From a virus: 64,000 nt of DNA. The position numbers and the translations under genes are program-made. Under the pieces are notes generated by a model. That model did no database searches. It saw only the letters and a list, made by a program, of their open reading frames with translations, and had not been told where the DNA came from. Positions 9,740 through 62,381 of this stretch are shown here, piece by piece (position 1 is the stretch's first letter; each line of letters starts with the position of its first letter). Location of the stretch: IMG/VR virus record IMGVR_UViG_3300024999_001891, positions 62,001 through 126,000 of that record; one strand, given 5' to 3'.

Positions 9740-9766
9740 TAGAACCTAAAAAGGTTCTATTTTTTT
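9740..9766 (+). terminator. intrinsic terminator after the RuvC-like gene
   Basis: Perfect stem TAGAACCT/AGGTTCTA (9740-9747 and 9752-9759) with an AAAA loop, followed by seven T residues. This is a textbook rho-independent terminator. Confidence 0.92.
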
Positions 9767-9777
9767 ATCTTAAAAAT

Positions 9778-9806
9778 TTGCATTACTTTTTTATTTATGT
9801 TACAAT
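9778..9806 (+). promoter_or_regulatory. promoter for the DGQHR-like gene
   Basis: TTGCAT (9778-9783), 17-base spacer, TGT then TACAAT (9801-9806). It is directly after the terminator and 37 bases before the gene, with the same extended -10 core as at 3944 and 7918. Confidence 0.75.
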
Positions 9807-9843
9807 AACTTTAATAACTTAATTATTTAGGAGGTTATGTAAA

Positions 9844-43100: not shown

Positions 43101-46100
43101 TAATTAGTCCCTTCATTTAATTCAATTATTTCAAATTCATTATAAATTGTTTGTCCGATTAAATTATCATTTACGTCATAAATATTATAACCTATTGCAT
43201 ATGGATTATTATTCCATAATAAAGTTATACTTTCACTTGTGATATTCAAAGCAGATAATTCGACAACTTCACTCATATCTGTAATAAATATAACTTCAGT
43301 TTTTGAACTTTCTCCACTTACATTCATAGCAGATACTTTAAATATATTTTCTGAACCTGAGATTAAATCTGATAAATTGTAACTAGTCTCAATAATATTA
43401 GTTATAATATCATTATTTACATCATAGATATTATATCCACTAGCACCTACAACTCCTGTCCATGAAATTGTTGCAGAATTAGTAGTAATGTTTGAAGAAA
43501 TTAAATCTGTAACTTCAGTAGGAATAGTTATAAATGAAATTATTGTTTTTTCACTTTCTCCAGAAGCATTTGATACACCTATTTTATATGTGTAATTTGT
43601 TCCTTTTTCTAGAGATATAATATCATAAGGTGAAACTATATTCGAGTCTATTATTACATCTGAATTATCATATAGCTTATAAACCAATCCTATAATATTT
43701 ATCCACATTAATTGTGCTGAATTATTTGTAATATTATCAGTATTTATAATAGGATTTGCAGGAATGGTTAAAATAGTAATTGGTTCAGATTTTTCACTTT
43801 CTAAAAGTGGATTTATACCAGTAATCGTAAATTGATAACTAGTATTTTCACTTAAAGTAGCAAAGGTGTAAGTTGAAGTTGGTATATTTACAAATAATGA
43901 ATTGTCTGAATTGTAAATATTGTAACTTTCAGATTTTTCATCTGTATTCCAAGTAATAGTTACTGAATTACTTATATTAGAAGTAATTTGAATATTTGTT
44001 GGAATATCTGGAACTGGAATAGGTAATGTTAAAAATGAACATGGAGTAGCTAAACTTTCTCCGCCTTCATTTAAAGCCGTGATGCTGTATCCATAAGGAG
44101 TATTTTCTGTTAAATTAGAAATTTCGTATGAAGGAGTTAATACGTTTGTTAGCAGATTGCCATCAAGAGAATAAATATTATAAGATGTTGCATTAGTTGA
44201 TGGAGTCCATGTTAGGGTTACGGAATTATAGGTAAGATTTGTTGTGGTTATTCCAGTTGGAGAAAGAGGCTTGATAGTTTCTGCTATGAGAACTGGTCGA
44301 AATGCCACAGTTGTATCATTACTTAAATAAGCATTCCAATTAGATGCGGAACCATTTCCTAAAACACTACGATAAGTATTACCATTTGCAGTATTAGTGG
44401 TATTAGTCCAACTATATTTTGTACTCCAATTCCAAACATTATTATCTCCTGCTACAATAGTTTCATTAAGTGTTGAATTTGCAATATACTTTATCCACTC
44501 ATTATCTAAATCTGTAGCTGAAATTCCTCCTATTGGAAGACGAAGATAATAATTATTTGACATATCTGAGGAAATAGACTTTACAGCATAAATTGTAAAA
44601 AATGGAGTAGTATTATGAGCAATTGAAACATAATTACCATCATTAGAAAACGAAACTCCAACTCCAGTTCCAGTTGGCAACGTAAACGGGTTCATAGTTT
44701 TAATAAAAGTGTCTTCAAATTGTCTATAGAAAGATACGAAAGGTGTTATATCATGAGTTATTGCCAAATAATTTCCATCAGGTGAAAAATTTGCACCATA
44801 TCCTAATCCAGTAGGTAGTGTTGATGGATTTAATAACTTTGTAAATACATCTCCAGATCTTTTATAAATTGTTATAAAAGGTGTAATATAATGTGCTACA
44901 GTTAGATAATTTCCATTAGGAGAAAAAGACGATTTCATTCCTATACCTGTTGGGAGAGTAGTTGGATTTGAAAGTTTAGTGAATATGTTTGCTGATTTTT
45001 TATATATTGTCAAAAATGGAGTTATGTCATGTGTAGCTGTAACGTATACACCATCAGGAGAAAAAGATACACCATAACAACTTCCAGTTGGCAATGAAGT
45101 TGGGTTATTAGTTTTTGTAAATATATCGTTAGATATTTGATATATTGTTACATATGGAGAAATATTATGTCCAACAATCATATACGAACTATCTGGAGAA
45201 AATGAAACTCTATTTCCCTGTCCAGTTGGTAGAATCGAAGGATCAGGAAGTTTAGTAAATGTATCGCCAGATCTTTTATATATTGTAATAAAAGGAGCAG
45301 TTCCATGTGTTACGCTCATGTAATTTCCATCTGGTGAAAATGAAGTTCCTTGTCCTGCTCCAGTTGGTAAAACAGATGGATCAGACAATTTTGTAAAAAC
45401 ATCACTAGATTTTTTATAAATTAAAACATATGGCGATGCACCACTAACAACAGACATATATGTTCCGTCTGGAGAAAAAGATGTTTCATTTCCTATTCCA
45501 GTTGGAAGCGTAGTAGAGTTAGGTAATTTGGAAAATGTCTTTGTATTTTTATCAACTATAACCCCTGAACCACTTGCTACCCCTGAAGTATTCAAAACAT
45601 CCCACGCTATACTATTTTGCACATTTCTATCTGCTACTAACATTTTTCTTCCTTTATAATCAGTATCCACCATTATAAAGTTAAAACTTCCATCTGGTGT
45701 AGCAGAACTCGCCACAGGAATTGCCGTTGCAGTAGTTATTCCAAGTTCTGAGAACGTTCCGACTTGACCTGAAGTTGGTGCTGTATAACGGCAAGGGATA
45801 AAATCTCCGATAGACATAGCTTGGGTGGTAGATTGAATGTTAGCCAAAGATATCTGCATAGTGTTGGAATTATTCAAAGATTGATAGCCAATTGGTAATA
45901 AATATGAAAAAGAAGAACTTCCAAAATTAGCTATTATAGAATATGACGAAGTGTCACCAGAAGAAACATAGGGATATATCACATCTCCAATAGAACTTTT
46001 TATATCTGACTTAGCTATCCCTTGACTAATACCATTTTTATAATACACAACTGTCTCTAGATCCATGTCTAATGCAACACTAATAACATCTCCACTATTC

Positions 46101-47698: not shown

Positions 47699-49657
47699 TT
47701 AAAACGAAAGTCTAGAACCAATACGAGAATTAGTATCTGTAATAAGAGAGTCTATATAAATACTAAATATTCCTGAATTTGTTGCATCTGCCCAAAAACC
47801 ACCATAGTTAGGAATGCTATTTGCATATAAGTGAGCTTGATCATAAATTTTAGTAGTAGAGCTTCCAGAAGTTACTTTTGGTATAAAATTTAGATAATTA
47901 TTATCCCAAATATCTGATATATAACCAAATACATCTGTAAAATTTGATGGTGATATAAATATTGCTCCATAACCTGATCCAGTATTATTAAATCCAACAT
48001 TACCTATTTTAATTGTAATAGGAGTAGAACCAGAAGTTCCGCTTGTTACTAATCCATCAATAAACTTATTAGTATTCCCATATAAATTCTCAATTCCCCT
48101 ATAACTCATAGCATGTAATCCATCAGTACCTAAATTCGATTCATTTCCAGTTATATTTCCTAATGTTGAAGTTTTTCCAGTAATAATTGATGCAGTATTT
48201 GTTGATTTAGTGTAACCTAAACCAATTTTGCTCTGAGAATCAAAGTGACCATATTCAACTAAATACAACATCTGTACTGCTGATAATAAATTAAAATCAG
48301 TTATGCCCCAACCATTTCCTCTACGTTGAGCGATAGTTCTGAAATTACTAATCGTCAATCCTGTATATGGTTTATAATCACTCACACTACACAGTTTCCA
48401 CGTTTCAGTTATGCTAGCATTATTATCACTTGTAGTATTTCCTGTTACATGACTACTCCCATTCCACAACACACCTTCATAAGCACTAAAATATCTATAA
48501 TTAACTTCTTCCGCAACTCCATCCCCATCTCTATCTCTATAAAACGCAGGATGAACAACATATCCATCTTTTTCCACATCACTTATCGAAAAACTATGTC
48601 CTGTTGCAGTACCATTTTTCTTATACCAAAACTTAGGTATTTCAACCATTACTTGTCCGTTAGTACCATCATCTTTATACGAAGCGTCTCCATAATAAGC
48701 ATTAACAACTCCTGCATCTGAAAGATTACATCTACGCATACCATACCAAGTTGTGGGTGTAATCGTAGATTGATCTAGAGGAAGATATCCAGTTGGGGGT
48801 TGTGATGCGAATGGAGTTAATCCAAAGTTAACTGTGGTTAAATTAGCAACCATGTCGCCACAACTATGATATGGATATACTATTCCAAGTGATGCTAAGT
48901 CAGTAAATGCAGAAATTCCATTATTTTGAACTTTGCCATTTCTATAAAATTTTATACTTTTCCCATCCATATCTAAAGCTATACCTACAATATCGTTCGA
49001 GACGAAAACATCACTATACATTATGCCACTTGGTTGTTTTGAACCAGTCCAACAATATATTACTCTTGTATTAGTCTCTGAACCATCTATTAAGGAAGCA
49101 CTACTATTAGCAATTCCAATAATAACTTTGGGAGATGTACTTAATCGAACTTCCCAATACCATTTTCCAGATGAAACTCCCTTAGTCGATCTAACTGCAC
49201 TATTAGTATATCCAAGACTAGATATCGTTAAGTTTCCATTACTCAACGTAACCGCACTACCCTTGTCAGTCGCACTCCAGGTAACAGGGGTCACATAATT
49301 TACCCCAATTACAGAATTAGCATTAGGCAACTTCAAAGTATCAAATGTCATAACTACTTTATCACTTTGACCCTCATCATTAACTGCATTAACTTTAAAA
49401 GCATGAGCCGCACTTGCTGTCAATCCAGTTATTACTTGACTTGTAGAATCAATTCCTGTCAAGTTGTAAATTATATTATCATCTTTATCATAAATCTTAT
49501 ATCCATTCGCGCTACTATTTCCTGTCCAAGAAATAGTTGCTGTTGTTTGCGTTATATTAGAAACCATTATATTTGTTGGTTCTAAAGGGATTGTTATACT
49601 TTGTAATTGGATATACGCATCTAAGGTTTTATCCCAACTAACTTGTATATAAGACAT
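47699..49657 (-). CDS. adhesin: FN3, SPRY and C-type-lectin-like domains
   Basis: This 652-residue protein begins SYIQVSWDKTLDAYIQL. It has an FN3 (about 28-108: PTNIMVSNITQTTATISW), then a SPRY domain (about 120-290) close to that of the 2084-residue protein, then a formylglycine-enzyme/C-type-lectin-like domain (about 310-652). The last includes GQVMVEIPKFWYK, HPAFYRDRDGDGVAE, WGITDFNLLSAVQMLYL and MSYRGIENLYGN, ending GSRLSF. This fold is the usual scaffold of phage receptor-binding variable proteins. Its framework is nearly identical to the protein at 49860, while the C-terminal about 110 residues differ. Confidence 0.8.
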   Translation of the reverse strand: MSYIQVSWDKTLDAYIQLQSITIPLEPTNIMVSNITQTTATISWTGNSSANGYKIYDKDDNIIYNLTGIDSTSQVITGLTASAAHAFKVNAVNDEGQSDKVVMTFDTLKLPNANSVIGVNYVTPVTWSATDKGSAVTLSNGNLTISSLGYTNSAVRSTKGVSSGKWYWEVRLSTSPKVIIGIANSSASLIDGSETNTRVIYCWTGSKQPSGIMYSDVFVSNDIVGIALDMDGKSIKFYRNGKVQNNGISAFTDLASLGIVYPYHSCGDMVANLTTVNFGLTPFASQPPTGYLPLDQSTITPTTWYGMRRCNLSDAGVVNAYYGDASYKDDGTNGQVMVEIPKFWYKKNGTATGHSFSISDVEKDGYVVHPAFYRDRDGDGVAEEVNYRYFSAYEGVLWNGSSHVTGNTTSDNNASITETWKLCSVSDYKPYTGLTISNFRTIAQRRGNGWGITDFNLLSAVQMLYLVEYGHFDSQSKIGLGYTKSTNTASIITGKTSTLGNITGNESNLGTDGLHAMSYRGIENLYGNTNKFIDGLVTSGTSGSTPITIKIGNVGFNNTGSGYGAIFISPSNFTDVFGYISDIWDNNYLNFIPKVTSGSSTTKIYDQAHLYANSIPNYGGFWADATNSGIFSIYIDSLITDTNSRIGSRLSF

Positions 49658-49859: not shown

Positions 49860-50909
49860 TTAAAAAGATAGACGAGAAGAGATAAGTGCGTTACTATAAT
49901 TAGACGTAGAAGTATCTAGGAAAAATGAACCACTTTTCGTATTACTAGCATAAAAGCCCCCAAACATAAAAATACCACCTGCATACATAGAAGCCCAATC
50001 ATACATTTTTGTAGTTGAACTTCCAGTGAATGTTTTTCCTATAAACCCAAATTCACTCTGATCCCAAATATCAGAACAATATCCACTTACGTTTGCAAAA
50101 GTTACAGAATAAAAGCTATACCCTATACCAGCGTCATTAAATCCAATATTTCCTATTTTGAATGTATTTGCTTCCGTTACTAATCCGTCAATCCATTTAA
50201 ATAAATTACCGTATAGATTTTCCATACCTCTATATGACATTGCGTGTAATCCATCTGTACCTAAATTCGATTCATTTCCAGTTATATTTCCTAAAGTAGA
50301 AGTTTTTCCTGTGATAATAGATGCTGTATTTCCGGTTGCAGTAAATCCTTTACCAATCTTTGTCTGACTGTCAAAATGTCCATATTCAACTAAGTACAAC
50401 ATTTGTACAGCACTAAGCAGATTAAAATCTAATATACCCCAACCATTTCCTCTTCTTTGAGCAATAGTACGAAAATTTCCAATGGTCAATCCTGCATACG
50501 GCTTATATCCACTAACACTACATAATTTCCAACTTGAAGTAACACTAGCATTATTGTCTGCTGTTGTATTTCCAGTTATATAATTCGTTCCATCATGTAA
50601 AATACCTTCGTAAGCTGAAAAATACCGAAACTCCACTGGCTCAGCTACTCCATCTCCATTCCTGTCTCTAAAAAAAGCAGGATGAACAGTAAAACCATCT
50701 TCAGGTTGATCAGAAATTCCGAAAGTATATCCTGTTTCCGTTGGTACTTTTTGATAATAAAACTTTGGTATTTCTACCATTACTTGTCCGTTTGAGCCAT
50801 CATCTTTAAAAGTTGAATCTCCAAAATACGCATTTACAGTTCCGTTATCCGAAAGATTACAACGTCTCATATTTGCCCATGGTGATAAGTTTGTAAAATC
50901 TATTGGCAT
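49860..50909 (-). CDS. C-type-lectin-like receptor-binding protein
   Basis: This 349-residue protein is essentially a free-standing copy of the lectin-like domain of the 652-residue protein. MRRCNLSDNGTVNAYFGDS, GQVMVEIPKFYYQ, RRGNGWGILDFNLLSAVQM and LHAMSYRGMENLYGN are near identical between the two. The C-terminal about 110 residues, which line the ligand site in this fold, diverge before the shared SSRLSF end. A ribosome site AAGGATGTG precedes the ATG. No reverse transcriptase is found in the window, so active diversification is not shown. Confidence 0.75.
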   Translation of the reverse strand: MPIDFTNLSPWANMRRCNLSDNGTVNAYFGDSTFKDDGSNGQVMVEIPKFYYQKVPTETGYTFGISDQPEDGFTVHPAFFRDRNGDGVAEPVEFRYFSAYEGILHDGTNYITGNTTADNNASVTSSWKLCSVSGYKPYAGLTIGNFRTIAQRRGNGWGILDFNLLSAVQMLYLVEYGHFDSQTKIGKGFTATGNTASIITGKTSTLGNITGNESNLGTDGLHAMSYRGMENLYGNLFKWIDGLVTEANTFKIGNIGFNDAGIGYSFYSVTFANVSGYCSDIWDQSEFGFIGKTFTGSSTTKMYDWASMYAGGIFMFGGFYASNTKSGSFFLDTSTSNYSNALISSRLSF

Positions 50910-50940
50910 TTATAAATCACATCCTTTATTAAAATTATAA

Positions 50941-50971
50941 TGAATCACAAATTAAATAAACCTGTGACTCA
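50941..50971 (-). terminator. terminator after the 50987 gene
   Basis: Stem TGAGTCACA/TGTGATTCA on the - strand (50971-50963 and 50949-50941, one G-T pair) is followed by TTATAATTTTAA. A plausible intrinsic terminator. Confidence 0.6.
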
Positions 50972-50986
50972 CTAAATTCTAATAAC

Positions 50987-51775
50987 TTATCGTGGCAATT
51001 CTCGGTAAGCAACTTCGAAATAAATATCTGTTTTATACTGAGTAGGAATTCTACCTACATAATTCGGATCACTTGTAGGAACACCTTTATTCAATTGTGG
51101 TACAGCTTTTGCATAAATCGTTTGATATAAACTAGGATCTGGACTAGCAATTGCATTACTAATTTCATTATTAATGTCATTAATTACAACGCTATTTCCT
51201 CCAACACTAGGGAAAGATCCTACATTCAACGTTAAATAAATATGTTTAACACTAGAAGTAACAGCACTTCCACCAACTAAATCTAAAATACTACCTGTTG
51301 AACTTGAACCTTTATAATTACGTACAACATTTACATAAGAACCTGTTGCATCTCCACCAATATTTTGTACCAAAACATCTTCATTATTAACTCCTGCTGT
51401 TACAGTTAATACTGTTCCAACATTAATCGACAATAATCCTGTTCCACTTGGAACTGTTTTAGAAACCTCTGAAAGATACAATTTATTATTTGTACTTGCA
51501 GGAGTTCCTAATTTAATTGTTGTGGTAAAAGGTTTAGGTGTAATTGTAATTGAAGGATTTCCTGTATATTTTAAAGACATTACTGTTCCATCTGCTGAAT
51601 CGAAAATAGGATCTCTTCTTCGTCCATCGTTAAATATATAAAATGTTGTTGGAGCAACTAAAGTAATATCATCTATACTTCCATCTTGCTCAATTGTTAA
51701 AGGATTACTTGCAGAAATAATGTTTGAATATACATTATTTACAACTGTAAAGTTTTTAACTAATACTAATGCCAT
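50987..51775 (-). CDS. virion structural protein with paired beta domains
   Basis: The 262-residue product starts at ATG 51775 with AGGGGGA upstream. A longer frame opens at 51817 but has no ribosome site and would overlap the neighbour. FYIFNDGRRRDPIFDSADG and the segment GTVLTVTAGVNNEDVLVQNIGG are echoed in the 51792 gene (FDDGSSEDLSLLLEY, GTKLITDPINTLQEEIWIRNISG), so the two are distant paralogues. The C-terminal part ends YKTDIYFEVAYRELPR. Function is unknown. It lies at the start of the adhesin bank and could be a base subunit. Confidence 0.5.
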   Translation of the reverse strand: MALVLVKNFTVVNNVYSNIISASNPLTIEQDGSIDDITLVAPTTFYIFNDGRRRDPIFDSADGTVMSLKYTGNPSITITPKPFTTTIKLGTPASTNNKLYLSEVSKTVPSGTGLLSINVGTVLTVTAGVNNEDVLVQNIGGDATGSYVNVVRNYKGSSSTGSILDLVGGSAVTSSVKHIYLTLNVGSFPSVGGNSVVINDINNEISNAIASPDPSLYQTIYAKAVPQLNKGVPTSDPNYVGRIPTQYKTDIYFEVAYRELPR

Positions 51776-51791
51776 AATTAATTCCCCCTTA

Positions 51792-52433
51792 TTAAAATAA
51801 AATACGTGGGTACTCATCAGCGAGTATTCTAAAATAAGTATCTTTCTTTATTTGAGTTTTTAACGCTCCAGTAGAAATTTTTATATATAATTTAACTGGT
51901 TTCCAACTTTCTATTATGTCTGGTAATGAAATTGGTGCGTTAATAAAGTCATCGTCATTTCCTGTTAAACTTAGAAATATATGATCTGGTATAGCGTCTA
52001 CAAAAGTGCCATTTGGTATTGTTAATCTAGTAGTAGAATTTTTAGCTCTGTCTACAACTAAATTATTTCCAGAAATATTTCTTATCCAAATTTCTTCTTG
52101 AAGCGTATTAATTGGATCAGTAATAAGTTTAGTTCCTTGATTTAACATCGAACCATCTTCAACACTAAACTGCGTACTTTCTGCGGAAATAGGTTGACCT
52201 GTGATAGTTGTAATTCTTGTGCGAACCCCTTTAGGGATAAAGGATATGTTGCGATATTCAAGAAGTAAACTTAAATCTTCACTTGAACCATCATCGAATA
52301 TATATACTATAATATTATCTGAAGTACCTGCTGAACTATGATTTGTAATAACAGGTATATCACTATCTCCCACAATTCCTACCCAAAATTCTGTTAAATT
52401 TAAATCACTAGAAGTAGATACCCTTATCGTCAT
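51792..52433 (-). CDS. virion structural protein, paralogue of the 50987 product
   Basis: This 213-residue, strand-rich protein includes FSVEDGSMLNQGTKLITD and EEIWIRNISGNNLVVDRAKNSTTR, a pattern seen in phage structural proteins of Bacillota, and a C-terminal TYFRILADEYPRILF similar in layout to the neighbour. It starts four bases after the HddC-like stop. It marks the boundary between the glycan island and the adhesins. Confidence 0.5.
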   Translation of the reverse strand: MTIRVSTSSDLNLTEFWVGIVGDSDIPVITNHSSAGTSDNIIVYIFDDGSSEDLSLLLEYRNISFIPKGVRTRITTITGQPISAESTQFSVEDGSMLNQGTKLITDPINTLQEEIWIRNISGNNLVVDRAKNSTTRLTIPNGTFVDAIPDHIFLSLTGNDDDFINAPISLPDIIESWKPVKLYIKISTGALKTQIKKDTYFRILADEYPRILF

Positions 52434-52437
52434 CTTA

Positions 52438-53022
52438 TCACCTCATTATTTTATACGATTCATATTTTTCAATTGATTCTCCTATATCAAACCACTTATC
52501 TTTATAAATATATTTGTCTGATCTAATTTTACTCAGAACATCATCTTCTAAAGAACAAATACCTTCTGGAATAACATCTATTAACTTGATATTTACTGCA
52601 CAAACACCAATTGAAACAAAATTGTTATCATAAGAAATAGTTATTAATTCTTTTGTTCTATTATGTTCTTTAAGCAAATGATTTAAATTAACGTCTGCTA
52701 TAGTGTCACCATTCATTAAAATAAAAGTATCATCTTTTAACAAATCTTTGCATAACCTAATTGCTCCACCAGTTCCTAAATTTAAATCATACGAATAACT
52801 TATATTGACACCAAATTCTTCACCATTGCCAAAATACTTCATAATAACTAGGCTCAAATTTCCAACAGCCAAGATAATTTCAGTAATTCCATTTTTCTTT
52901 AGATATTCAATTTGATGCACCAAAACTGGTTTTCCACCTATTGGTAACATTCCTTTAGGAGTATTTTTAGCAATATCTCCAAGTCTAGTCGCTTTTCCGC
53001 CACATAAAATTACACATTGCAT
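52438..53022 (-). CDS. hddC: heptose-1-phosphate guanylyltransferase, HddC-like
   Basis: This 194-residue sugar-nucleotidyltransferase (GT-A fold) shows LCGGKATRL (residues 6-14), TPKGMLPIGGKPVL with Lys23, NLGTGGAI (81-88) and the metal-binding NGDTIAD (Asp106). It is somewhat shorter than typical HddC (about 230). In the context of the other three pathway enzymes it should convert heptose 1-phosphate and GTP to GDP-heptose. The nucleotide cannot be proven from sequence. Its start overlaps the GmhB-like stop by 13 bases. It is last in the pathway sub-operon. Confidence 0.75.
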   Translation of the reverse strand: MQCVILCGGKATRLGDIAKNTPKGMLPIGGKPVLVHQIEYLKKNGITEIILAVGNLSLVIMKYFGNGEEFGVNISYSYDLNLGTGGAIRLCKDLLKDDTFILMNGDTIADVNLNHLLKEHNRTKELITISYDNNFVSIGVCAVNIKLIDVIPEGICSLEDDVLSKIRSDKYIYKDKWFDIGESIEKYESYKIMR

Positions 53023-53510
53023 AAAATTTTTTCAACTGCTTTCAGCAAATTAGGAAATACATAATCTGCATTATTAATCTCATTTCCTATTTTAATAGTT
53101 TTTACTCCTGCATTTTTACCGCACAAAATATCAGAATCTTTATCACCAATCATCCAACTTTTAGACAAATCTATATTATAATGTTCACTAGCTTTAATAA
53201 TCATATAAGGATTTGGTTTTCTGCATTGACAATTATCTTCAGGAGTATGTGGGCAATAAAATACATTTTTTAATTTATTACCTAATAAATTATTTAATTT
53301 ACAATTTATTTTAAATAAGTCATAATGAGTAAAATAACCTCTTGAAATTCCTGATTGATTAGTAATAATTATTGGAATAAATTCATTATCAACAATTATT
53401 TGAAGTGCTTCTTTAACACCTTCGATTAAAACAATGTCTTTATGTTTAGATATATAACCGTAATCATGATTTAATACTCCATCTCTATCAAGAAAAAATG
53501 CTTTATTCAT
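53010..53510 (-). CDS. gmhB: heptose-1,7-bisphosphate phosphatase, GmhB-like
   Basis: This 166-residue HAD phosphatase has FLDRDGVLN (Asp8, Asp10), ITNQSG (49-54), the zinc loop Cys86-x-His88 ... Cys94-x-Cys96, RKPNP with Lys98, and GDKDSD (122-127). The zinc loop and lengths match GmhB of the heptose pathway. It removes the 7-phosphate from D-glycero-D-manno-heptose 1,7-bisphosphate. Its stop and start overlap those of its neighbours. Confidence 0.85.
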   Translation of the reverse strand: MNKAFFLDRDGVLNHDYGYISKHKDIVLIEGVKEALQIIVDNEFIPIIITNQSGISRGYFTHYDLFKINCKLNNLLGNKLKNVFYCPHTPEDNCQCRKPNPYMIIKASEHYNIDLSKSWMIGDKDSDILCGKNAGVKTIKIGNEINNADYVFPNLLKAVEKILCNV

Positions 53511-54058
53511 TAAAATAATTCATCTTCTATTATTTCGCATATCATATGAATTGCTAAAAGATATGCTTCTTGTATTCTAGCTGTATCTATAGATGGCATA
53601 GTTAAAGAATTTTCGTATTTATTATCAACTAAACCAGTAATTAAAATAGGTATAGCTTCTAATTCTTCCGCTTTATCTAATGCATTTAATATATTTATTG
53701 ATTTACCACTAGTAGTTATACCAATAACTATATCTCCTTTATTAGCATAAGCTATTACCTGCCTAGAGTATATTTCATCATAATTATAATCATTTCCAAT
53801 TGCAGTAATAACTGCATTATTACTTGATAATGCTATTGCGTTTAATCCTTTTCGATCAAACTTAAATTTATTTACTAATTCTGCAACAAAATGTTCAGCA
53901 TCAACTGCGCTTCCACCATTTCCGCATATTAATACTTTATTTCCGTTTCTATAAGCAGTTATAATTATATTTGCAACTTTATCAATTTTATCTAATTTAA
54001 AAATTAAATTTGATACAGTTCTAACATTTTCTCTTAAAACTTCTGTTAAATTGACCAC
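53510..54058 (-). CDS. gmhA: sedoheptulose-7-phosphate isomerase, GmhA-like
   Basis: This 182-residue SIS-domain enzyme has CGNGGSAVDAEHF (45-57), a conserved Glu60, GITTSGKSIN (113-122) and TARIQEAYLLAIH (159-171), all diagnostic of GmhA. It turns sedoheptulose 7-phosphate, a pentose-phosphate intermediate, into D-glycero-D-manno-heptose 7-phosphate and so taps host central metabolism. Its stop and the GmhB start share one base, and its own start overlaps the kinase gene by 13 bases. Confidence 0.88.
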   Translation of the reverse strand: MVNLTEVLRENVRTVSNLIFKLDKIDKVANIIITAYRNGNKVLICGNGGSAVDAEHFVAELVNKFKFDRKGLNAIALSSNNAVITAIGNDYNYDEIYSRQVIAYANKGDIVIGITTSGKSINILNALDKAEELEAIPILITGLVDNKYENSLTMPSIDTARIQEAYLLAIHMICEIIEDELF

Positions 54059-55038
54059 GATTGAACACCTCTATTTTCAAAATGAAAGTCTAAAATAGTT
54101 CCTCCTATTTCAGTTAAAGCATTTTTTAATAAATCTTTATCATTTGGACAATAAAAAAGAAGGTATCCTCCTCCTCCTGCTCCACAATTTCGTACTCCAG
54201 AAGCACCATTATTTAGACCAACTTTACAAAGTTTATCTATTCGAAGAGTTGTAATACCACTTGTTAATTTCTTTTTAATATTCCATGTTTCTCCAAACAA
54301 TTCAGAAAACCTAATTAAATTATTATTAGAAATTTCTATTCTCATTTTATAAACTAATTCTTTGATTTCATGTAAATATTCAAAATTATTTTTATAAGAA
54401 TTGATTTGTTTTTCTATAATATCTTCTCCTACTCTAGTTATACCTGTATAGCATAAGACAAGATTATTTTCTAACTCATTTATAAAATTATCTTTTATTC
54501 TCAATGGATTAACAACAATATTTTCTTTTTCAAATGTAATATAATTAAATCCTCCAAAAGAAGTTGCAAATTGATCTTGGTATCCGCCTTTTATACCTAG
54601 TATTTTACGTTCGATATAGTATGCAAGATGTGCAATATTATCTTTGCTATAATTATTAATACCTAAATACTTACAAAATAATTCTATTAAACAAACACTT
54701 AAAGAAGATGATAATCCCAATCCACTTCCTACAGGAACATCACTTTCGATATATAAGTCGAATCCTTCTGTGAACTCTTTAAGCATATTCATATATATCA
54801 TTACAGATTTAACTATTTTTAACTCTCCGTCAACTACATAAGTAAATTTTTCTGTAACTCCTAAATCTTTAGAATAGATAGTTATTTCCTTATCTTCTCT
54901 AGGTTTAAGTGTAGCGTAAACATATTTATTAATTGTCGTACTAATTACGCATCCACCAAACTCACTAACATATGGTTCAATATCTGTTCCACCACCAGAA
55001 AATGATATTCTTAATGGTGCTTTTGATCTATATATCAT
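54046..55038 (-). CDS. hddA: D-glycero-alpha-D-manno-heptose-7-phosphate kinase, HddA-like
   Basis: This 330-residue GHMP kinase has RISFSGGGTDIEPY (10-23), the ATP loop PVGSGLGLSSSLSV (about 101-114), GGYQDQFATSFGG and the C-terminal GASGVRNCGAGGGGYLLFY. It phosphorylates heptose 7-phosphate at C1 in the alpha configuration. A GHMP-type kinase is specific to the GDP-heptose branch (the ADP branch uses HldE), so it decides which nucleotide sugar is made. It is the first of four overlapping pathway genes. Confidence 0.87.
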   Translation of the reverse strand: MIYRSKAPLRISFSGGGTDIEPYVSEFGGCVISTTINKYVYATLKPREDKEITIYSKDLGVTEKFTYVVDGELKIVKSVMIYMNMLKEFTEGFDLYIESDVPVGSGLGLSSSLSVCLIELFCKYLGINNYSKDNIAHLAYYIERKILGIKGGYQDQFATSFGGFNYITFEKENIVVNPLRIKDNFINELENNLVLCYTGITRVGEDIIEKQINSYKNNFEYLHEIKELVYKMRIEISNNNLIRFSELFGETWNIKKKLTSGITTLRIDKLCKVGLNNGASGVRNCGAGGGGYLLFYCPNDKDLLKNALTEIGGTILDFHFENRGVQSWSI

Positions 55039-55058
55039 TTAAAACACTCCTTATATCC

Positions 55059-56150
55059 TTAAATTCCTAAAACATCTTTTAAATTCTGTGCTATCTGTAA
55101 GTAATCAAATTTTAAACTATCTTGTTTGGCTTGTTTCGCTTTACTTTTAGCTTCTTCTCTGTTATTATATACGTGTCGAAGTAAATACTGGAGATGATCT
55201 ATAGAAGGTTCAGCCCATTCCATATACGACTGAAAGTCTCCAGAATACCACTGACTCTCTACTGGTCTTAACTGATATTCTAATAAATAACTGTTTTCAT
55301 TTGTTATAAATTCTGTTTGACCAGACCAATTAGTTGCTATAACTGGCAATTCATTTGCCATTGCTTCTAGAACTACACGATTATACCCTTCACATCTTGA
55401 AGGCGAAATAAACGCATCTGCGTTAGAAAACAAATCTGCTATTTTTTCGTATGGTAATGAGGTTGTATTTACATATACTGGATATGTTCTTTTATATTTA
55501 TTTTTAACAGATACAATATAAGTTAATATAGCTGAAGAAGGTAGTATTTCGTAGTTCAATGAAGATGTTTTTATGGTTAAAGAAACGTCATCATTATTAT
55601 CAAATTCTCTGAAGAAAGCTTCTAATAATATATCATAAGATTTTCTAGGCAACCACTGAAATAAAGAAAAGAAATTAAACGTATTACTATCTTTTAATAC
55701 TTTAGGTTTTATGAGAGAGAAATCTATTCCTTCTCTAACAATAACCACTGGTTTATTTATGTCATTTTCTAATATATCTCTATTAAAGTGACTTGGCACA
55801 ATAATTGTATTAATATCTGCACTATTATTGATTAAATTTAACCATTGTTCAGGGTAAGAACTCGTTTCCCAAACAGTAGACGCAAAAGTCTTTTTAGCAC
55901 CATGCCAAGGTTTAAATTCTGGAAGGATAGTTCTATTAAGATAAATGAAATCATCTTCAAGAGGTGTATCTATAGCTTTTTTTAGCATTTCTCTTGTGTC
56001 AGCATTTTCAATGGTATATAAGTATTCTATAGGTTGGTCAACTATCTTTAGGTTTACGCCAAGTTCTAAAAGTCCTTTAATATATAATAGATTCGTATTT
56101 ACATATCCACTACAACCATATATACCACATCTTAAAGCCAATTGAGTCAT
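55059..56150 (-). CDS. glycosyltransferase, GT-B/GT4-like
   Basis: This 363-residue protein has an N-terminal half without a clear Rossmann Gly-rich loop beyond CGIYGCSGY. The C-terminal domain has the retaining GT4 signature EGYNRVVLEAMANELPVIAT (the Glu-x7-Glu pair) after FSNADAFISPSRCEG. No membrane segment is present, so it is probably soluble. It is likely to transfer the heptose or another sugar to the glycan or protein acceptor. A separate ribosome site precedes it, and it lies 20 bases upstream of hddA. Confidence 0.8.
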   Translation of the reverse strand: MTQLALRCGIYGCSGYVNTNLLYIKGLLELGVNLKIVDQPIEYLYTIENADTREMLKKAIDTPLEDDFIYLNRTILPEFKPWHGAKKTFASTVWETSSYPEQWLNLINNSADINTIIVPSHFNRDILENDINKPVVIVREGIDFSLIKPKVLKDSNTFNFFSLFQWLPRKSYDILLEAFFREFDNNDDVSLTIKTSSLNYEILPSSAILTYIVSVKNKYKRTYPVYVNTTSLPYEKIADLFSNADAFISPSRCEGYNRVVLEAMANELPVIATNWSGQTEFITNENSYLLEYQLRPVESQWYSGDFQSYMEWAEPSIDHLQYLLRHVYNNREEAKSKAKQAKQDSLKFDYLQIAQNLKDVLGI

Positions 56151-56167
56151 ATTTCACCTTCTATCCC

Positions 56168-57316
56168 TTAAAGAGTATTAAATCCTTCTAATCCATCTTT
56201 TTCTATTATTCCTGCTAATTCTCTGATCACATATTCCCATAAAGGAGTAATATATTTCCAATCAAATGCCTCGCAATATTTTCGACACTCTTTACCAATT
56301 ACAGGTAAAACACTTCTGTTTTTATAATAAATATTAAGTTTTTCTGTTAAATCAGAACTACTTATTATCTGTCTCTCAGTATCCCATAGTGGCAAAAAAT
56401 ATGAACCAACTGTATTAATTCTCATATTTCTGGACACAAATTCTTTACAAGCAGAATAATCAGTCACCAAAACTGGCACTTCACATAATTGTGCTTCTAA
56501 TGAAGGAAGCATTAAACCTTCTCCGCTAGTAGATGAAGCGTAAATATCCATAAGATTGTATATTTCAACAAATGTTTTTTCATCAACACCTGTTTCAACA
56601 TTTAAATCTTTTGTAATATAAACTTTATCTTGTATATTATTTCTCATAATATGTTCATATAAATTATGTCCTACATCAATTGGTTTAGTATGAAGATATA
56701 AAACTACATCATTTTTATCTTTAGCGAAATCAGCAAATGATTTTATTAAAGCAGGGAAATTTTTTCTTTCAGAATTACGTCCAACTGATCCTACTACAAA
56801 TTTACCACTTAATCCATACTTCCGTTTTATCGCTTCTTTATTCATTGGCCTGAATACTTCTGGATCTACTCCATGATAGATTAAACGTGTATCTTCTCTT
56901 TGAGTAGCGTTTATTGTTGCATTTAATCCTGTTTTTGAATAAGTTATAGGCATATCCATTTGATTAACAATGTACTTTTGAGCAGTTGTAAGTTGTTCGG
57001 AATCGACTGGAAAATATCCCAAAAAACGAAAAAATCTATTCTTGTATTGTCCTATATAACTGATGTTCATTAAATCTCCATACGCAAACACGATGTCTGG
57101 AAGTAAATCATCTACAACTTTAGTAAATATTGTTTTCCCAAAGTCATTGTTTGGTACTGGATGAAGTTTGTATTTATAATCTATCTCTTCTTTAAGACCC
57201 CAAGCAATTTGTTCTACGTGATGTCCTAAAGAAAGAAAGATGCCAGCTAAACGTCTTATAATTACGGAATATCCTGTATTATACAAAGGGCAATCTGATA
57301 TAAGTAATATTTTCAA
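56168..57316 (-). CDS. glycosyltransferase, GT4 family
   Basis: This 382-residue protein has an N-terminal ISDCPLYNTGYSVIIRRLAGIF with a Gly-containing donor/acceptor loop, a central VGSVGRNSERKNFPALIKSFA, and a C-terminal SGEGLMLPSLEAQLCEVPVLVTDY with the Glu-x7-Glu pair. This is a clear GT-B retaining transferase. It overlaps nothing and starts three bases after the acyltransferase stop. Likely extends the virion glycan. Confidence 0.85.
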   Translation of the reverse strand: MKILLISDCPLYNTGYSVIIRRLAGIFLSLGHHVEQIAWGLKEEIDYKYKLHPVPNNDFGKTIFTKVVDDLLPDIVFAYGDLMNISYIGQYKNRFFRFLGYFPVDSEQLTTAQKYIVNQMDMPITYSKTGLNATINATQREDTRLIYHGVDPEVFRPMNKEAIKRKYGLSGKFVVGSVGRNSERKNFPALIKSFADFAKDKNDVVLYLHTKPIDVGHNLYEHIMRNNIQDKVYITKDLNVETGVDEKTFVEIYNLMDIYASSTSGEGLMLPSLEAQLCEVPVLVTDYSACKEFVSRNMRINTVGSYFLPLWDTERQIISSSDLTEKLNIYYKNRSVLPVIGKECRKYCEAFDWKYITPLWEYVIRELAGIIEKDGLEGFNTL

Positions 57317-57318
57317 TT

Positions 57319-57777
57319 TTAATCAATTCCTTCAAACCTATTTTTAAGAAATTTTGCTGGATTACCTGCCCATATCTCGAAAGCAGGAATTGTTTTTCCT
57401 GTCAATACAGATCCTCCTGCAAGTACAGAACCTTCTTCCATAATACTTCCTGCATTAATAACACAATTACAACCAATCCAACAACCATCTGAGATTATTA
57501 CAGGTTTTGAATTATATGGTTGATGTTTTATCCAAGATTCTTTTCCTCTATATTCGTGATTAGCGTCCCTGAGAGTGGTTTTTTCAGCTATTATTGCTCC
57601 ATTTCCAATTCTTACATATTCATTACAAACAATCATTGTCCATTTACCAATAAAAACATCATGTCCAATATCTAAATGTCCACCATCAGCGTGAAGATAA
57701 TAATCTCCAAGATGTTGAACAAATCCATCCTTCATGGATACTTTACCACCGTTATTTTCATATATTTCAAGTGACAT
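57319..57777 (-). CDS. hexapeptide-repeat acyltransferase
   Basis: This 152-residue left-handed beta-helix protein shows repeats such as LDIGHDVFIG, VRIGNGAIIAE, VIISDGCWIGCNCVI and INAGSIMEEGSVLAGGSVLTG, with a loop DANHEYRG holding the probable catalytic His. The closing AGNPAKFLKNRF is typical of sugar O- or N-acetyltransferases. It probably acetylates the heptose or another sugar of the glycan. Strong AAAGGAGG site. Confidence 0.85.
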   Translation of the reverse strand: MSLEIYENNGGKVSMKDGFVQHLGDYYLHADGGHLDIGHDVFIGKWTMIVCNEYVRIGNGAIIAEKTTLRDANHEYRGKESWIKHQPYNSKPVIISDGCWIGCNCVINAGSIMEEGSVLAGGSVLTGKTIPAFEIWAGNPAKFLKNRFEGID

Positions 57778-57822
57778 ATAAAACCTCCTTTAAGGGAATA
57801 CTGAAAGTAGAGGTGAATAATT

Positions 57823-57897
57823 ATGAAAAGGGTGTTTGGTATAATTGTTATTTTGTCTCCATTTATAGGAGCATGGTGGTATTGGATAAATAATTAA
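57823..57897 (+). CDS. 24-aa putative membrane peptide on the opposite strand
   Basis: ATG at 57823 follows AGAGGTG with eight-base spacing. The frame encodes a basic start, a hydrophobic core (VFGIIVILSPFIGAWWYWI) and two Asn. The frame fills most of the only long gap (57778-57893) in the glycan island and overlaps the end of the - strand glycosyltransferase by four bases. No promoter is convincing. It could be chance, but the ribosome site and clean hydrophobic span are suggestive. Confidence 0.35.
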   Translation: MKRVFGIIVILSPFIGAWWYWINN

Positions 57898-58802
57898 AGA
57901 GAATCCATTACTTCTTTCCAAAAGTTAGTAGCTATTGTTTGCCAACAGAATTTATTACGAACTTCTTTGATTTCGTTCGCTGTCATCTTTGTATTATCTG
58001 AATTATTAAAATGCTTTATGATATTATTAGTCATATCAATATCATATTCACCTTCTGGTATAAATAATGAAAAATCTTCAAACCATTTACGATAATATAT
58101 ACTGTTAAAACAAATCGGTTTTGCACCACAAATAGCACCTTCGATGACAGGTAGCTCGAATCCTGCACCAGACCTCATTCCAGAAACAAATTTACATGAC
58201 ATATACCATTCTTTAAGTTCATCATCAGAAATCCACTTTTCAAAGGTGTGAAAATTAGAATCAAATACTCTTCCCTGACGCAAGAATTGATGAAACCTAA
58301 AATCAGTATGCAACATTTTACCACCAGTTAATCTACAACTATCGTATATTTCTGAGTGATGTTCGCTGTCATAAAAACTGAAACTAATTATAGTATTATC
58401 TCTCTTGCTATTAATCGCTTTTACAGCATCTACATTGAATATTTCTTCATCAAATCCCCAAGGTGCGTAAACATGATTGGTATTTTGATTAACATTTGTA
58501 TATCCAAGAATATCTAATGGATGAAATGTATATGTCATTTTAAGTAAAGGATTAGAAAATAAATCATTAAAATACGATTTATCTTGTTGTAATTCACTTA
58601 TTAAGAATATCATTGGTTTTTTACAATTATGTAAATACCAATTTAAATCATTTAAATATTGATGATGAAATATTACAAAATTAGCTTCTTCATAACTATT
58701 TACAAATTCAATTGAATTAGGACTATGTTTTCTTAGGTTTTTTGATATCCTAGCACCACCTTGTCGAAGCTCCCCACCATAAGTTTCCCAACACTTAATC
58801 AT
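57894..58802 (-). CDS. glycosyltransferase, GT-B-like
   Basis: This 302-residue protein has an N-terminal CWETYGGELRQGGARI with a Gly-Gly loop like those that hold nucleotide sugars. A mid-region YAPWGFDEEIFN resembles the Gly-x-Asp turn before the C-terminal domain of GT4 enzymes. The C-terminal SGMRSGAGFELPVIEGAICGAKPICF holds the Glu-x7-Glu-like pair. It is the third transferase of the island. Its start overlaps the SDR stop by four bases. Confidence 0.75.
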   Translation of the reverse strand: MIKCWETYGGELRQGGARISKNLRKHSPNSIEFVNSYEEANFVIFHHQYLNDLNWYLHNCKKPMIFLISELQQDKSYFNDLFSNPLLKMTYTFHPLDILGYTNVNQNTNHVYAPWGFDEEIFNVDAVKAINSKRDNTIISFSFYDSEHHSEIYDSCRLTGGKMLHTDFRFHQFLRQGRVFDSNFHTFEKWISDDELKEWYMSCKFVSGMRSGAGFELPVIEGAICGAKPICFNSIYYRKWFEDFSLFIPEGEYDIDMTNNIIKHFNNSDNTKMTANEIKEVRNKFCWQTIATNFWKEVMDSL

Positions 58803-59752
58803 ATTATTACCTCATAACGCCAATAATCCAAAACTTCTTTCAGCGTACTATAAAAATCTTCTTCCATTTCCCAACCAATACTTTTTAACTTAGAGTTATC
58901 CCCTAACTCCAACGGAATATCAGATTTTCTTAACTTATTTTCGTCAATTTCAACAGTAATATCCGCACTAGACATTCCTATAAGACAATCTAATATATCA
59001 CTCATTTTTCTTGGAATTCCAGAACAAATATTATAAGATTCTCCATTTGTATTTTCATCACTTTGAGACAATATCCATAATGCTTTTACACAATTTTTTG
59101 CCGAAAGAAAGTCACGCTCACTTGTTAAATTCCCTACCTTTATGATTCCTTTACTTCCTCTTCTCTCAATCATAGCTATTTGTTTAGCAAAACTATTAAC
59201 ACTACTGTTCTCTCCCTGTCTTCGACCAATCTGTATATATGGTCTAACATTTATGACAGGCAAGCAATAATTCTTAAAGTATTGATATCCCATTGTTTCC
59301 GTTGCAACTTTTGTCACAGCATATAAACTTAACGGATGAAATTGCGTTTCTTCATCCGTGGGATACTTGCCATTTACGTCACCGTAAACTGCCGCACTTG
59401 ATGCCAAAATAATCTTTTTTGGAATATAATTTGCTAATTTAATAGATTCTAAAAGATTAAAAGTTCCATTAATATTAGTATCAATGGTCATTTGAGGATT
59501 GCTTTCAGATATTTTTGGATAACCTTGTCCTGCCAGTGAAAAAATTATGTCTGGTTTTATTTCATTAATTATATTTAGAACTGCCACAAAATCTGTTATG
59601 TCTAAATCTCTGTAACTTACAATTTCTGGTCTATACGCTTTACTTCTAGGGCGTTTACTTGCAAATATCTCATATTCTTTATGGTTTTTATAAATATAAT
59701 CAATTAAATGACTTGCTATCATTCCATTACCACCTGTAATAAATACCTTCAT
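58799..59752 (-). CDS. GDP-sugar-type SDR (RMD-like reductase/epimerase)
   Basis: This 317-residue extended SDR has Gly7-xx-Gly10-xx-Ala13 (ITGGNGMIAS), catalytic Ser118/119 (LASSAAVYG), and Tyr144-xxx-Lys148 (SLYAVTK). The later segments VGNLTSERDFLSAKNCV and LELGDNSKLKSIGWEME, ending VLDYWR, resemble GDP-mannose dehydratase/GDP-4-keto-6-deoxymannose reductase proteins. The dehydratase Thr-x-Glu motif (STSELYG) is replaced by SSAAVYG, so a reductase or epimerase is more likely than a 4,6-dehydratase. It probably modifies the GDP-heptose made by the four-gene unit. Confidence 0.75.
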   Translation of the reverse strand: MKVFITGGNGMIASHLIDYIYKNHKEYEIFASKRPRSKAYRPEIVSYRDLDITDFVAVLNIINEIKPDIIFSLAGQGYPKISESNPQMTIDTNINGTFNLLESIKLANYIPKKIILASSAAVYGDVNGKYPTDEETQFHPLSLYAVTKVATETMGYQYFKNYCLPVINVRPYIQIGRRQGENSSVNSFAKQIAMIERRGSKGIIKVGNLTSERDFLSAKNCVKALWILSQSDENTNGESYNICSGIPRKMSDILDCLIGMSSADITVEIDENKLRKSDIPLELGDNSKLKSIGWEMEEDFYSTLKEVLDYWRYEVII

Positions 59753-59765
59753 CCCATCACCTCTT

Positions 59766-59846
59766 CTACCAATTTAACGGAATAATCATTGCTAATTTAA
59801 AATAATAAAATATTACGAAATTCTTAATATCTTTTAAAATATTCAA
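59766..59846 (-). CDS. 26-aa small peptide between SGNH and SDR genes
   Basis: AAGGAGA is followed at eight bases by TTG (59846), which opens a frame of 26 codons with a hydrophobic, aromatic middle (FVIFYYFKLAMIIPLNW). An ATG six bases earlier is too close to the ribosome site, as in thyX. The frame occupies nearly the whole 106-base gap. It may be a small membrane peptide or a leader for the SDR gene. Confidence 0.4.
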   Translation of the reverse strand: MNILKDIKNFVIFYYFKLAMIIPLNW

Positions 59847-59858
59847 ATGCATTTCTCC

Positions 59859-60401
59859 TTAAATTTTTATTAACGCTTTATAAAAATTATCTGCAATTTT
59901 ACGTTGTCCTTCGTCATTCAGATGATGTAAATCCTCTAAGAAATAACTAATATCTTTTGTATCAGTATAAGTATCTACTAATTCAATTCCATTCATATAA
60001 CAAAATACATTTAATAAATTATTATATTCCACTATCATAGGTCGTATATTTCTAACAATTTTACTTGGCACATTTTCCTGAATATACGGCGTTGTAGAAA
60101 TCACTATTTTCAAATCATGTTTCTTAATATATGTAATTAATTTGTAATAATCTGAAAATATCTCTTTAAACGATCTTCCTAATATTAAATCATTTATGCC
60201 AACCAAAATTGTTACAACATTAATATATTCTACTGGAATAATGTTTTTTGCAACTTTATAAACATCGTCAATTATCGAACCTGCTTTTCCTGCATTAATT
60301 ACATTAAATTCTTTTGTTTCTGCTAATATTTGAGGATAATATACTAAATTTGGCAGTAATTCTGCATAAGTTATACTATCTCCAAGACATAGAATGTTCA
60401 T
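59859..60401 (-). CDS. small SGNH/GDSL hydrolase
   Basis: This 180-residue single-domain enzyme has CLGDSITYA with Ser9, NAGKAG with Gly38 (block II), VGINDL with Asn70 (block III) and DLHHLN with Asp157/His160 (block V). There is no signal peptide, so it acts in the cytoplasm. It is the first gene of the glycan island and probably edits acyl groups on the sugar or glycan made there, opposing or completing the work of the acyltransferase. It shares its fold with the SGNH domain of the 829-residue adhesin. Confidence 0.8.
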   Translation of the reverse strand: MNILCLGDSITYAELLPNLVYYPQILAETKEFNVINAGKAGSIIDDVYKVAKNIIPVEYINVVTILVGINDLILGRSFKEIFSDYYKLITYIKKHDLKIVISTTPYIQENVPSKIVRNIRPMIVEYNNLLNVFCYMNGIELVDTYTDTKDISYFLEDLHHLNDEGQRKIADNFYKALIKI

Positions 60402-60428: not shown

Positions 60429-60455
60429 AAGGAGGTTGATTTTACTCAACCTCTT
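60429..60455 (-). terminator. terminator between capsid genes and glycan island
   Basis: Stem AAGGAGGTTGA (60429-60439)/TCAACCTCTT (60446-60455) is followed on the - strand by TTATTTTGG. It overlaps the stop codon of the 60454 gene. It would reduce read-through from the strongly expressed capsid block. Confidence 0.7.
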
Positions 60456-60897
60456 ATATCTTACCGATCTTTTGACTTTCATCTTCTTCAATTTCATCAA
60501 TTACTTTTATTCCAGTAGCATCCTCAATAAGCTTTAATTTACTTAATGGTAAATCCAATGTCTTAGCTGTTGTTACAACTTTTTCAAAAGCATGTCTCTC
60601 TGAGATATTAGATAGAAAATTCTTTAAGTCTGGCATTTTACCACTTAATGCTTTAATTACATCTTCTGTTTTTAAAGCATTTGGATTTGGTTTTCCTAAT
60701 CCCATATTTTCCATAATATCTTTATTTTCGCAAATCAAAACACCTTCTCTAAAGAGGGAACATACATTATTGGTATAATATATGTCATCCTCTTCAAGCA
60801 TGTTAAAAGAATTTGCAGGAACTTTACTTTCTATTTTTCCATCCATTGAAATTAAACCTACCGGAAAGTTATTGTTATTAAAAACTTTATACTTCAA
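60454..60897 (-). CDS. hypothetical 147-aa head-region protein
   Basis: An N-terminal YKVFNNNNFPVGLISMDGKIESKVPANSFNMLEEDDIYY reads as a small beta domain, followed by helices (DVIKALSGKMPDLKNFLSNI, AFEKVVTTAKTLDLPLSKLKLIEDAT) and an acidic end. It lies directly after the major capsid gene, where phages often encode head-completion or decoration factors. I do not recognise a family. Confidence 0.5.
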   Translation of the reverse strand: MKYKVFNNNNFPVGLISMDGKIESKVPANSFNMLEEDDIYYTNNVCSLFREGVLICENKDIMENMGLGKPNPNALKTEDVIKALSGKMPDLKNFLSNISERHAFEKVVTTAKTLDLPLSKLKLIEDATGIKVIDEIEEDESQKIGKI

Positions 60898-60925: not shown

Positions 60926-61909
60926 TTAGGATAATGAACTGTCTTTATATAATCCTAAGAATTTACGGTATCCAACGACACCAACACCAACATATTTATC
61001 CATACGGACTTCATACATTTTGTCGTTGATTGAAGTTGCTTCCATTGCAGATACTTGTCCTTCAAGAACGACCTTTAACGGACGATTAGCAGAAGCACCA
61101 GTAGGAACAATATAAAGTAAATCTTTACGAAGAACAGTGTTAGTTAAGTTTTCTTGAACAAGTTGATTGTTCATCTTAACAATATTTGCAGTTTTATAGG
61201 TTCCAAGATGACCGTTTTGATTGTGTTCTTTTACGTATTCTGGATTTACAATACTATTAAAACCAGTTAATGCAGTAAATTTAGAAATACACTCGATATC
61301 TCCCATAATACTTACCCCACCCAAACGGGCTAAAGCATAAATTATAGGATCAATAACAGTTGCGACAACACCATTTCCTGTCCCATAGTTAGGAGCAGAC
61401 ATAGCAGAAAAAGCATCGTAAAGAGTTTTTTGAACTTTAGCGGCAATGGCCATTTCCATACGGAATGCTGATTCAGTTGCTACCTTAGAGAAGTCTGTTT
61501 TACCACTAAGTAAATCATAAAAGTTAATCGCAGGACGAACAGAAACTTCATCAGTTTCTAAGGTCGTATACGTGTGACCAACTTTACTACGCTCAGTAGT
61601 ACTTCCTTTAGCTTGGAAGAAAGCTTTTACTCCAGGTAGATCAACTTGGAATTGAGCTTTTTGTCCAAAGTCGATATGTTTAACGTCTGCAATAGTTGGT
61701 AGATAGTTTAAAGAAAGATCAAGTTGATTATCTACAATAAGACGAAGGATTTGTGCGATTTCATAACGATTGTTAGGGTTAGGATTAGCACATAATTCCT
61801 TGATAAAATCGTTAGCGTCTTTTAATTCACTTGCAACAACATTTTGAGGTGCAGTTAAATTTGCACTAAATAGTTCTACGATAGGTGATTTAGCATTAAT
61901 TTCTGACAT
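60926..61909 (-). CDS. major capsid protein, HK97-like
   Basis: This 327-residue protein has an N-terminal helical arm (ANDFIKELCANPNPNNRYEIAQIL), an E-loop/P-domain zone (DVKHIDFGQKAQFQVDLPG, VGHTYTTLETDEVSVRPAINF), a long spine helix (FRMEMAIAAKVQKTLYDAFSAM) and an A-domain (IDPIIYALARLGGVSIMGD ... MDKYVGVGVVGYRKFLGLY). Its codon use is less A+T biased than nearby genes, as for the most abundant virion protein. A near-perfect AAGGAGGTAATT site precedes it. It lies between a decoration-type gene and a small head gene and follows a protease/scaffold gene. Confidence 0.8.
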   Translation of the reverse strand: MSEINAKSPIVELFSANLTAPQNVVASELKDANDFIKELCANPNPNNRYEIAQILRLIVDNQLDLSLNYLPTIADVKHIDFGQKAQFQVDLPGVKAFFQAKGSTTERSKVGHTYTTLETDEVSVRPAINFYDLLSGKTDFSKVATESAFRMEMAIAAKVQKTLYDAFSAMSAPNYGTGNGVVATVIDPIIYALARLGGVSIMGDIECISKFTALTGFNSIVNPEYVKEHNQNGHLGTYKTANIVKMNNQLVQENLTNTVLRKDLLYIVPTGASANRPLKVVLEGQVSAMEATSINDKMYEVRMDKYVGVGVVGYRKFLGLYKDSSLS

Positions 61910-61940: not shown

Positions 61941-62381
61941 TTATTTTACAACTACAGAGATCGCGGGATTACCATAAAAAACTTCTGCATTACTTTTTAC
62001 AACAAAAGAATATTTAGGTGTACGTGCCGCTATTGCTACAAGATTTCCAGATGCTCCTACAGCCAATATATCTCCATCGGCAGGTGTACCAGTAAAATTA
62101 GTAGTTACTATAATGTCGCCAGCTTGTGGAACATGGCCTTTTACGAATTTACCATTCTTTAATACAAAATCAGCATCGTCAATCATTTGTTCAAATACTG
62201 TATCAATTTCGTTTTGTACGAAAAGAACTTCTCCATCTCCTGCCGTTGCATCAGCAGGAACAGTTGCAACCCCATTTGCATAATCAGGTACAACAAATTG
62301 TCCCACTTCAACTCCATCTGTTGCACTTAATGTTAAAGTACCAATATATTGATCATTACCAAGACTTAAAAATCCAGACAT
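61941..62381 (-). CDS. capsid decoration or head-fibre-like protein
   Basis: This 146-residue, beta-rich, Gly/Ala/Asp-rich protein (YIGTLTLSATDGVEVGQFVVPDYANGV, GDIIVTTNFTGTPADGDILAVGASGNLVAIA) without Cys or membrane segments lies directly before the major capsid gene, the usual place of decoration proteins. Codon use resembles the capsid gene, implying high expression. Position and composition support the call, not a known motif. Confidence 0.55.
   Translation of the reverse strand: MSGFLSLGNDQYIGTLTLSATDGVEVGQFVVPDYANGVATVPADATAGDGEVLFVQNEIDTVFEQMIDDADFVLKNGKFVKGHVPQAGDIIVTTNFTGTPADGDILAVGASGNLVAIAARTPKYSFVVKSNAEVFYGNPAISVVVK

Follow-up and report, generated by a model that had tools for sequence, protein, structure and literature searches.

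A phage-borne heptose and glycosyltransferase cassette beside capsid genes and its possible part in virion glycosylation

What use would a tailed phage have for genes that can probably make and transfer an activated heptose, placed directly beside the genes for its capsid? The locus that raises this question lies in the 136,658-bp virus record IMGVR_UViG_3300024999_001891, of which the window, meaning the whole stretch of 64,000 nucleotides analysed here, covers bases 62001-126000. It comes from a tailed phage of low GC with strong AGGAGG-type ribosome-binding sites. Its head module is syntenic with that of Geobacillus virus E3 (TerL 57%, portal 46%, major capsid protein (MCP) 51%), and its DNA polymerase III is nearest to those of Bacillus, Lysinibacillus and Clostridioides phages. 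A search of genome contigs with GTc, one of the products of the locus, found no host prophage, so the host can be placed only as Firmicutes-like, judging from the ribosome-binding sites and the phage relatives.

A sugar block next to the capsid genes

Ten minus-strand genes run from 60401 to 52438, directly following the capsid genes, and all ten reading frames were found where the first-pass annotation had put them (Table 1). Upstream, in synteny with Geobacillus virus E3, are genes for a decoration protein, MCP, p496, portal and TerL; downstream come p213, p276 and then proteins bearing SPRY, fn3 and F5/8C domains. None of the ten block products contains a strongly hydrophobic segment, and all of them look soluble.

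Table 1. Features of the sugar block and its flanks, with positions in the window
Feature	Positions	Strand	Evidence
p146, small head/decoration-type protein (flank)	61941..62381	-	49% to E3 gp16
Major capsid protein, MCP (flank)	60926..61909	-	51% to E3 gp17; phrog_4088
p147, conserved gene after MCP (flank)	60454..60897	-	39% to E3 gp18
Terminator-like hairpin separating capsid and sugar units	60432..60453	-	8-bp perfect stem and T tract, z -3.4
SGNH/GDSL hydrolase, esterase/deacetylase type	59859..60401	-	PF13472 2e-16; absent from L023
SDR nucleotide-sugar enzyme, RMD / GDP-heptose 4,6-dehydratase-like	58799..59752	-	PDB 2pk3 4e-51, 7us5 2e-43
GTc, probable GT-B glycosyltransferase (weak)	57894..58802	-	phrog_4356 6e-4
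Hexapeptide-repeat acyltransferase, sugar O-acetyltransferase type	57319..57777	-	PF00132; WbbJ-like 2e-19
GTb, GT4 glycosyltransferase	56168..57316	-	PF00534; phrog_2170 2e-32
GTa, GT4 glycosyltransferase	55059..56150	-	PF00534; phrog_2170 3e-35
HddA, D-glycero-D-manno-heptose 7-phosphate kinase type	54046..55038	-	NF049969 7e-75; PDB 3k85 6e-62
GmhA, sedoheptulose 7-phosphate isomerase type	53510..54058	-	TIGR00441 2e-47; PDB 1tk9 2e-44
GmhB, heptose 1,7-bisphosphate phosphatase type	53010..53510	-	PRK08942 4e-44; PDB 3l8e 3e-25
HddC-like nucleotidyltransferase, short form (194 aa)	52438..53022	-	HddC model 5e-28
p213, co-travelling protein, candidate acceptor or decoration	51792..52433	-	44-46% to L023, same position
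p276, distant paralogue of p213, candidate acceptor or decoration	50987..51775	-	50-52% to L023
Strong hairpin after p276, likely unit end	50938..50974	-	z -9.1

The block had been described as sharing strand and spacing with the capsid genes. It does lie on the same strand and directly adjacent to them. With p147 on one side and the SGNH gene on the other, however, stands a terminator-like hairpin, and the block may therefore be transcribed separately from the capsid genes. With this hairpin at one end and the one after p276 at the other, the sugar genes, p213 and p276 look like a single unit. In the second phage compared below (L023), a comparably strong hairpin comes directly after MCP, one gene sooner than in the window. 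The start of p276 was set by alignment with L023, the only IMG/VR relative of this protein that was found; for p213 and p276 AlphaFold gave no usable fold (pLDDT 29).

Several other genes of the window were noted in passing. The product p349 (49860-50909) and the C-terminal half of p652 (47699-49657) are 65% identical paralogues that might, as a guess from sequence, carry C-type-lectin/FGE-like receptor domains, p349 having no Pfam match; no reverse transcriptase was found, so the pair is not an evident diversity-generating (DGR) system. A 2084-aa protein has SPRY and five fn3 domains together with a run of 138-bp repeats at 44593-45508 (46-aa units, PD40-like beta-propeller). An 829-aa structural-region protein (37628-40117), conserved in L023 (39%), contains an internal SGNH/GDSL domain and is perhaps a virion-borne esterase. 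Between the connector and tape-measure genes sits a tyrosine-recombinase-like gene (30183-31202), whose homologues in Geobacillus virus E3 and SPbetaL3 are placed likewise.

What the enzymes resemble

The four enzyme types first assigned to the block, GmhA, HddA, GmhB and HddC, all hold at the family level: the matches are strong for HddA (whose best PDB matches, 3k85 and 4n3o, are both HddA), GmhA and GmhB, moderate for HddC, and far beyond chance. All four score below the NCBIfam curated equivalog cut-offs, so that we infer their exact substrates. For HddC the best single NCBIfam match is a mannose-1-P guanylyltransferase model (2e-29), close to the HddC model itself.

The pathway had been called complete, and two details qualify this: the length of the HddC-like product and a substitution in the SDR. 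The HddC-like product is short and has no counterpart of a hairpin of about 20 residues that is present in the homologues from L023 (full length, 212 aa) and from cyanophages; that hairpin follows the DxD region and precedes the C-terminal strands, and the reading frame is simply shorter at this position. The conserved hairpin probably contributes to sugar binding. Is the gene then broken? A phage from a different HddA clade, L026, has an HddC (9399-10004) that is missing the same hairpin, and there the gene lies inside another complete heptose set, which argues against a broken gene.

The other first-pass assignments, to an SDR, a hexapeptide acyltransferase and an SGNH hydrolase, are all borne out by family matches. 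The best alignments of the SDR (PF16363, 2e-52) are with GDP-6-deoxy-D-lyxo-4-hexulose reductase (2pk3) and GDP-heptose 4,6-dehydratase (7us5). It retains Ser-Tyr-Lys, and the catalytic Glu of the dehydratase is replaced by Ala (SSAAVYG, against SSSEVYG in 7us5), as it also is in L023; a nucleotide-sugar reductase, dehydrogenase or epimerase is likelier than a dehydratase. Of the three GT-B transferases proposed, GTa and GTb are clear GT4 enzymes, but the third, GTc, is weakly supported. Pfam does not place the GT4 domain (PF00534) in it, and all that identifies it is its phrog_4356 match and a GT4-like C-terminal motif, GAGFELPVIEGAICG. A PDB profile search with GTc gave no relevant match, and Foldseek found no significant match for its AlphaFold model (mean pLDDT 52). 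Its homologue in L023, 56% identical, is the only IMG/VR relative found. Outside the block, no further PF00534 glycosyltransferase was found in the record.

The block in other phages

A search for the same block in related phages, as the first-pass annotation had suggested, recovered nine of the ten genes, with order and location preserved, in a second IMG/VR phage, IMGVR_UViG_3300046453_000093 (L023; 90,874 bp). There the genes for portal, p496, a 160-aa head protein, MCP and a 155-aa protein are followed by SDR, GTc, acyltransferase, GTb, GTa, HddA, GmhA, GmhB and HddC, then by p213 and p276, and after these by more tail or decoration genes, all in the order of the window. The SGNH hydrolase gene was not found in L023 and is thus not core. 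The sugar enzymes of the two phages are 40-61% identical (the SDR 54%), against 25% for MCP and 29% for TerL, and their HddA proteins are sisters (100/98 support), as are their GmhA proteins (100/100). The locus is a nearly complete phage-borne nucleotide-heptose and glycosyltransferase cassette, linked to virion genes and maintained as one unit in both of these divergent phages. Three E3-like relatives (L103, L104, L106) have a p147 homologue after MCP and no such block within reach.

HddA and MCP gave no matches in IMG/VR when used as single sequences, and alignments were needed as queries. These found HddA relatives in at least 511 IMG/VR contigs. Among the best 80 of these loci, though, BLAST with the window proteins detected all four enzymes and an SDR within 10 kb in just four, and the four enzymes without the SDR in one more; these counts are lower bounds. 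On the HddA tree the virus label needs about seven changes, at least five of them on supported branches, so phages acquired HddA several times. Four unverified "phage" fragments from human faeces (L009, L019, L021, L022) were used solely in trees and alignments. The view that a full self-supplied activated-heptose pathway is unusual in a phage was overstated, given these numbers and the cyanophages that carry HddA, HddC and SDR genes with or without GmhA.

Where do such genes sit? In two contigs of other HddA clades a complete set is flanked by genes for a neck/tail-completion protein and the major tail protein (L100) or adjoins TerL (L026). L026 also has intein-like insertions in its terminase large subunit (14075-18136) and in an aminotransferase-like sugar gene (5402-7687). 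Relatives of GTb occur in phiPsal1 (MCP-GT-MT-GT2-neck), Mae-JY09 (MCP-x-GT, then a head-tail adaptor), S-CBS4 (portal-x-GT, then MCP) and TJE1 (upstream of the terminase). Phage glycosyltransferase genes linked to virion genes and conserved between phages were thus found.

Virion glycosylation and its alternatives

The best reading, with a probability of about 0.6, is that the block glycosylates virion proteins with a sugar derived from GDP-heptose. GmhA, HddA and GmhB would convert sedoheptulose 7-phosphate to D-glycero-D-manno-heptose 1-phosphate, which the HddC-type enzyme would turn into GDP-heptose. The SDR may oxidise, reduce or epimerise the nucleotide sugar, the soluble GT4 enzymes, acting in the cytosol, would assemble a short glycan that contains this sugar on a virion protein, and the acyltransferase may add acetyl groups. 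This reading is preferred because the gene order is conserved beside capsid genes in L023, complete sets lie in virion modules in L100 and L026, GT4 relatives occur at head/neck junctions, the enzymes appear soluble, and a PF02397 search found no initiating transferase in the window record or L023. Soluble glycosyltransferases within a structural module fit cytosolic glycosylation of virion proteins, which has a reported parallel in mycobacteriophages. Counting against it are the terminator-like hairpin at the capsid boundary, the sub-cut-off scores of the core enzymes, the loss of the HddC hairpin, the weak GTc and the possibility that enzymes of the host use this sugar too. The earlier proposal of heptose on virion proteins thus gains from genomic context and from conservation beside capsid genes, while the enzyme activities, GDP as the nucleotide, the heptose and its modification, the acceptor and any benefit are parts that we infer. 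Nothing found here supports the tail-tube Ig domain, which had been named as a target. Better candidates are the co-travelling p213 and p276; these two or other head decorations would be the likeliest acceptors. A more tentative idea, at somewhat less than even odds, is that a modular, self-supplying heptose cassette decorates p213 and p276 as dedicated, co-inherited head proteins and has been retained whole through the divergence or replacement of the capsid protein itself.

Could the target instead be the host? The main rival has the cassette modifying a wall polymer or S-layer glycan of the cell surface during infection or lysogeny, for instance as a block to superinfection. That GDP-heptose serves as a precursor of bacterial surface glycans is well established, and the acetyltransferase and SGNH hydrolase of the block are a pair common in surface glycan loci. 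The genome announcement of cyanophage SynMITS9220M01, too, reads its heptose-related genes as LPS genes (PMC7378029). Set against this, neither phage has a PF02397 initiating transferase, the ten products have no strongly hydrophobic segment, and the genes belong to a structural module adjoining capsid genes in two phages, which leaves modification of the host surface unlikely, if well short of negligible.

A smaller chance still attaches to a sugar other than GDP-heptose, with the short HddC-type enzyme either inactive or making a different nucleotide sugar from some sugar phosphate that the host supplies. The missing hairpin and the mannose-1-P guanylyltransferase match would suit such a case; the same deletion inside the complete set of L026, the heptose-type neighbours HddA, GmhA and GmhB, and the full-length HddC of L023 oppose it. 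Phage DNA, in place of protein, is a very improbable target of the glycosyltransferases: phage glycosyltransferases are reported to glycosylate DNA (PMC12619734), but no base-modification enzyme of the thymidylate-synthase family was found in the record, the glycosyltransferase genes here are part of the structural module, and related genes in other phages adjoin capsid or neck genes.

If virion glycosylation is correct, some phages bring a nearly complete route from a sugar phosphate of central metabolism to a virion glycan, going beyond the borrowing of host sugars, and glycosylation of the particle would be independent of the host supply of nucleotide sugars. It would also make p213 and p276 a concrete acceptor pair, and, as sugar genes recur where head and tail genes meet in unrelated phages, a location there would become a predictor of virion glycosylation.

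Among known systems, the four enzyme types are those of the bacterial pathway to GDP-D-glycero-alpha-D-manno-heptose, and a cellular locus (L157) has HddA, GmhA and GmhB in the same order; unlike the bacterial surface-glycan pathway, the set in the window is phage-borne, joined to virion genes, has a short HddC and comes with no initiating transferase found by PF02397. Cyanophages SynMITS9220M01 and Bellamy carry HddA-x-HddC-SDR-SDR and glycosyltransferases, with SDRs adjoining HddA/HddC that are 32-33% identical to that of the window, but their HddA falls in a separate clade and no capsid or tail genes are annotated in the stretch examined. Caulobacter phage Cr30 likewise has a glycosyltransferase, HddA and GmhA together; GmhB and HddC, both present in the window, were undetected there, and no virion genes are annotated in the stretch examined. 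In phiPsal1 and Mae-JY09 a GTb-related GT4 gene is inserted between MCP and neck genes, in stretches where, unlike in the window, no heptose pathway genes were detected. In mycobacteriophages, tandem phage glycosyltransferases reportedly act on the proteins of capsid and tail tube, modification of virion proteins being proposed or shown (Freeman et al. 2023, as cited in PMC11600133 and PMC12619734). The portions of these two papers drawn on here mention no self-supplied nucleotide-heptose pathway, which the window has, and give known acceptors, where the window offers candidates.
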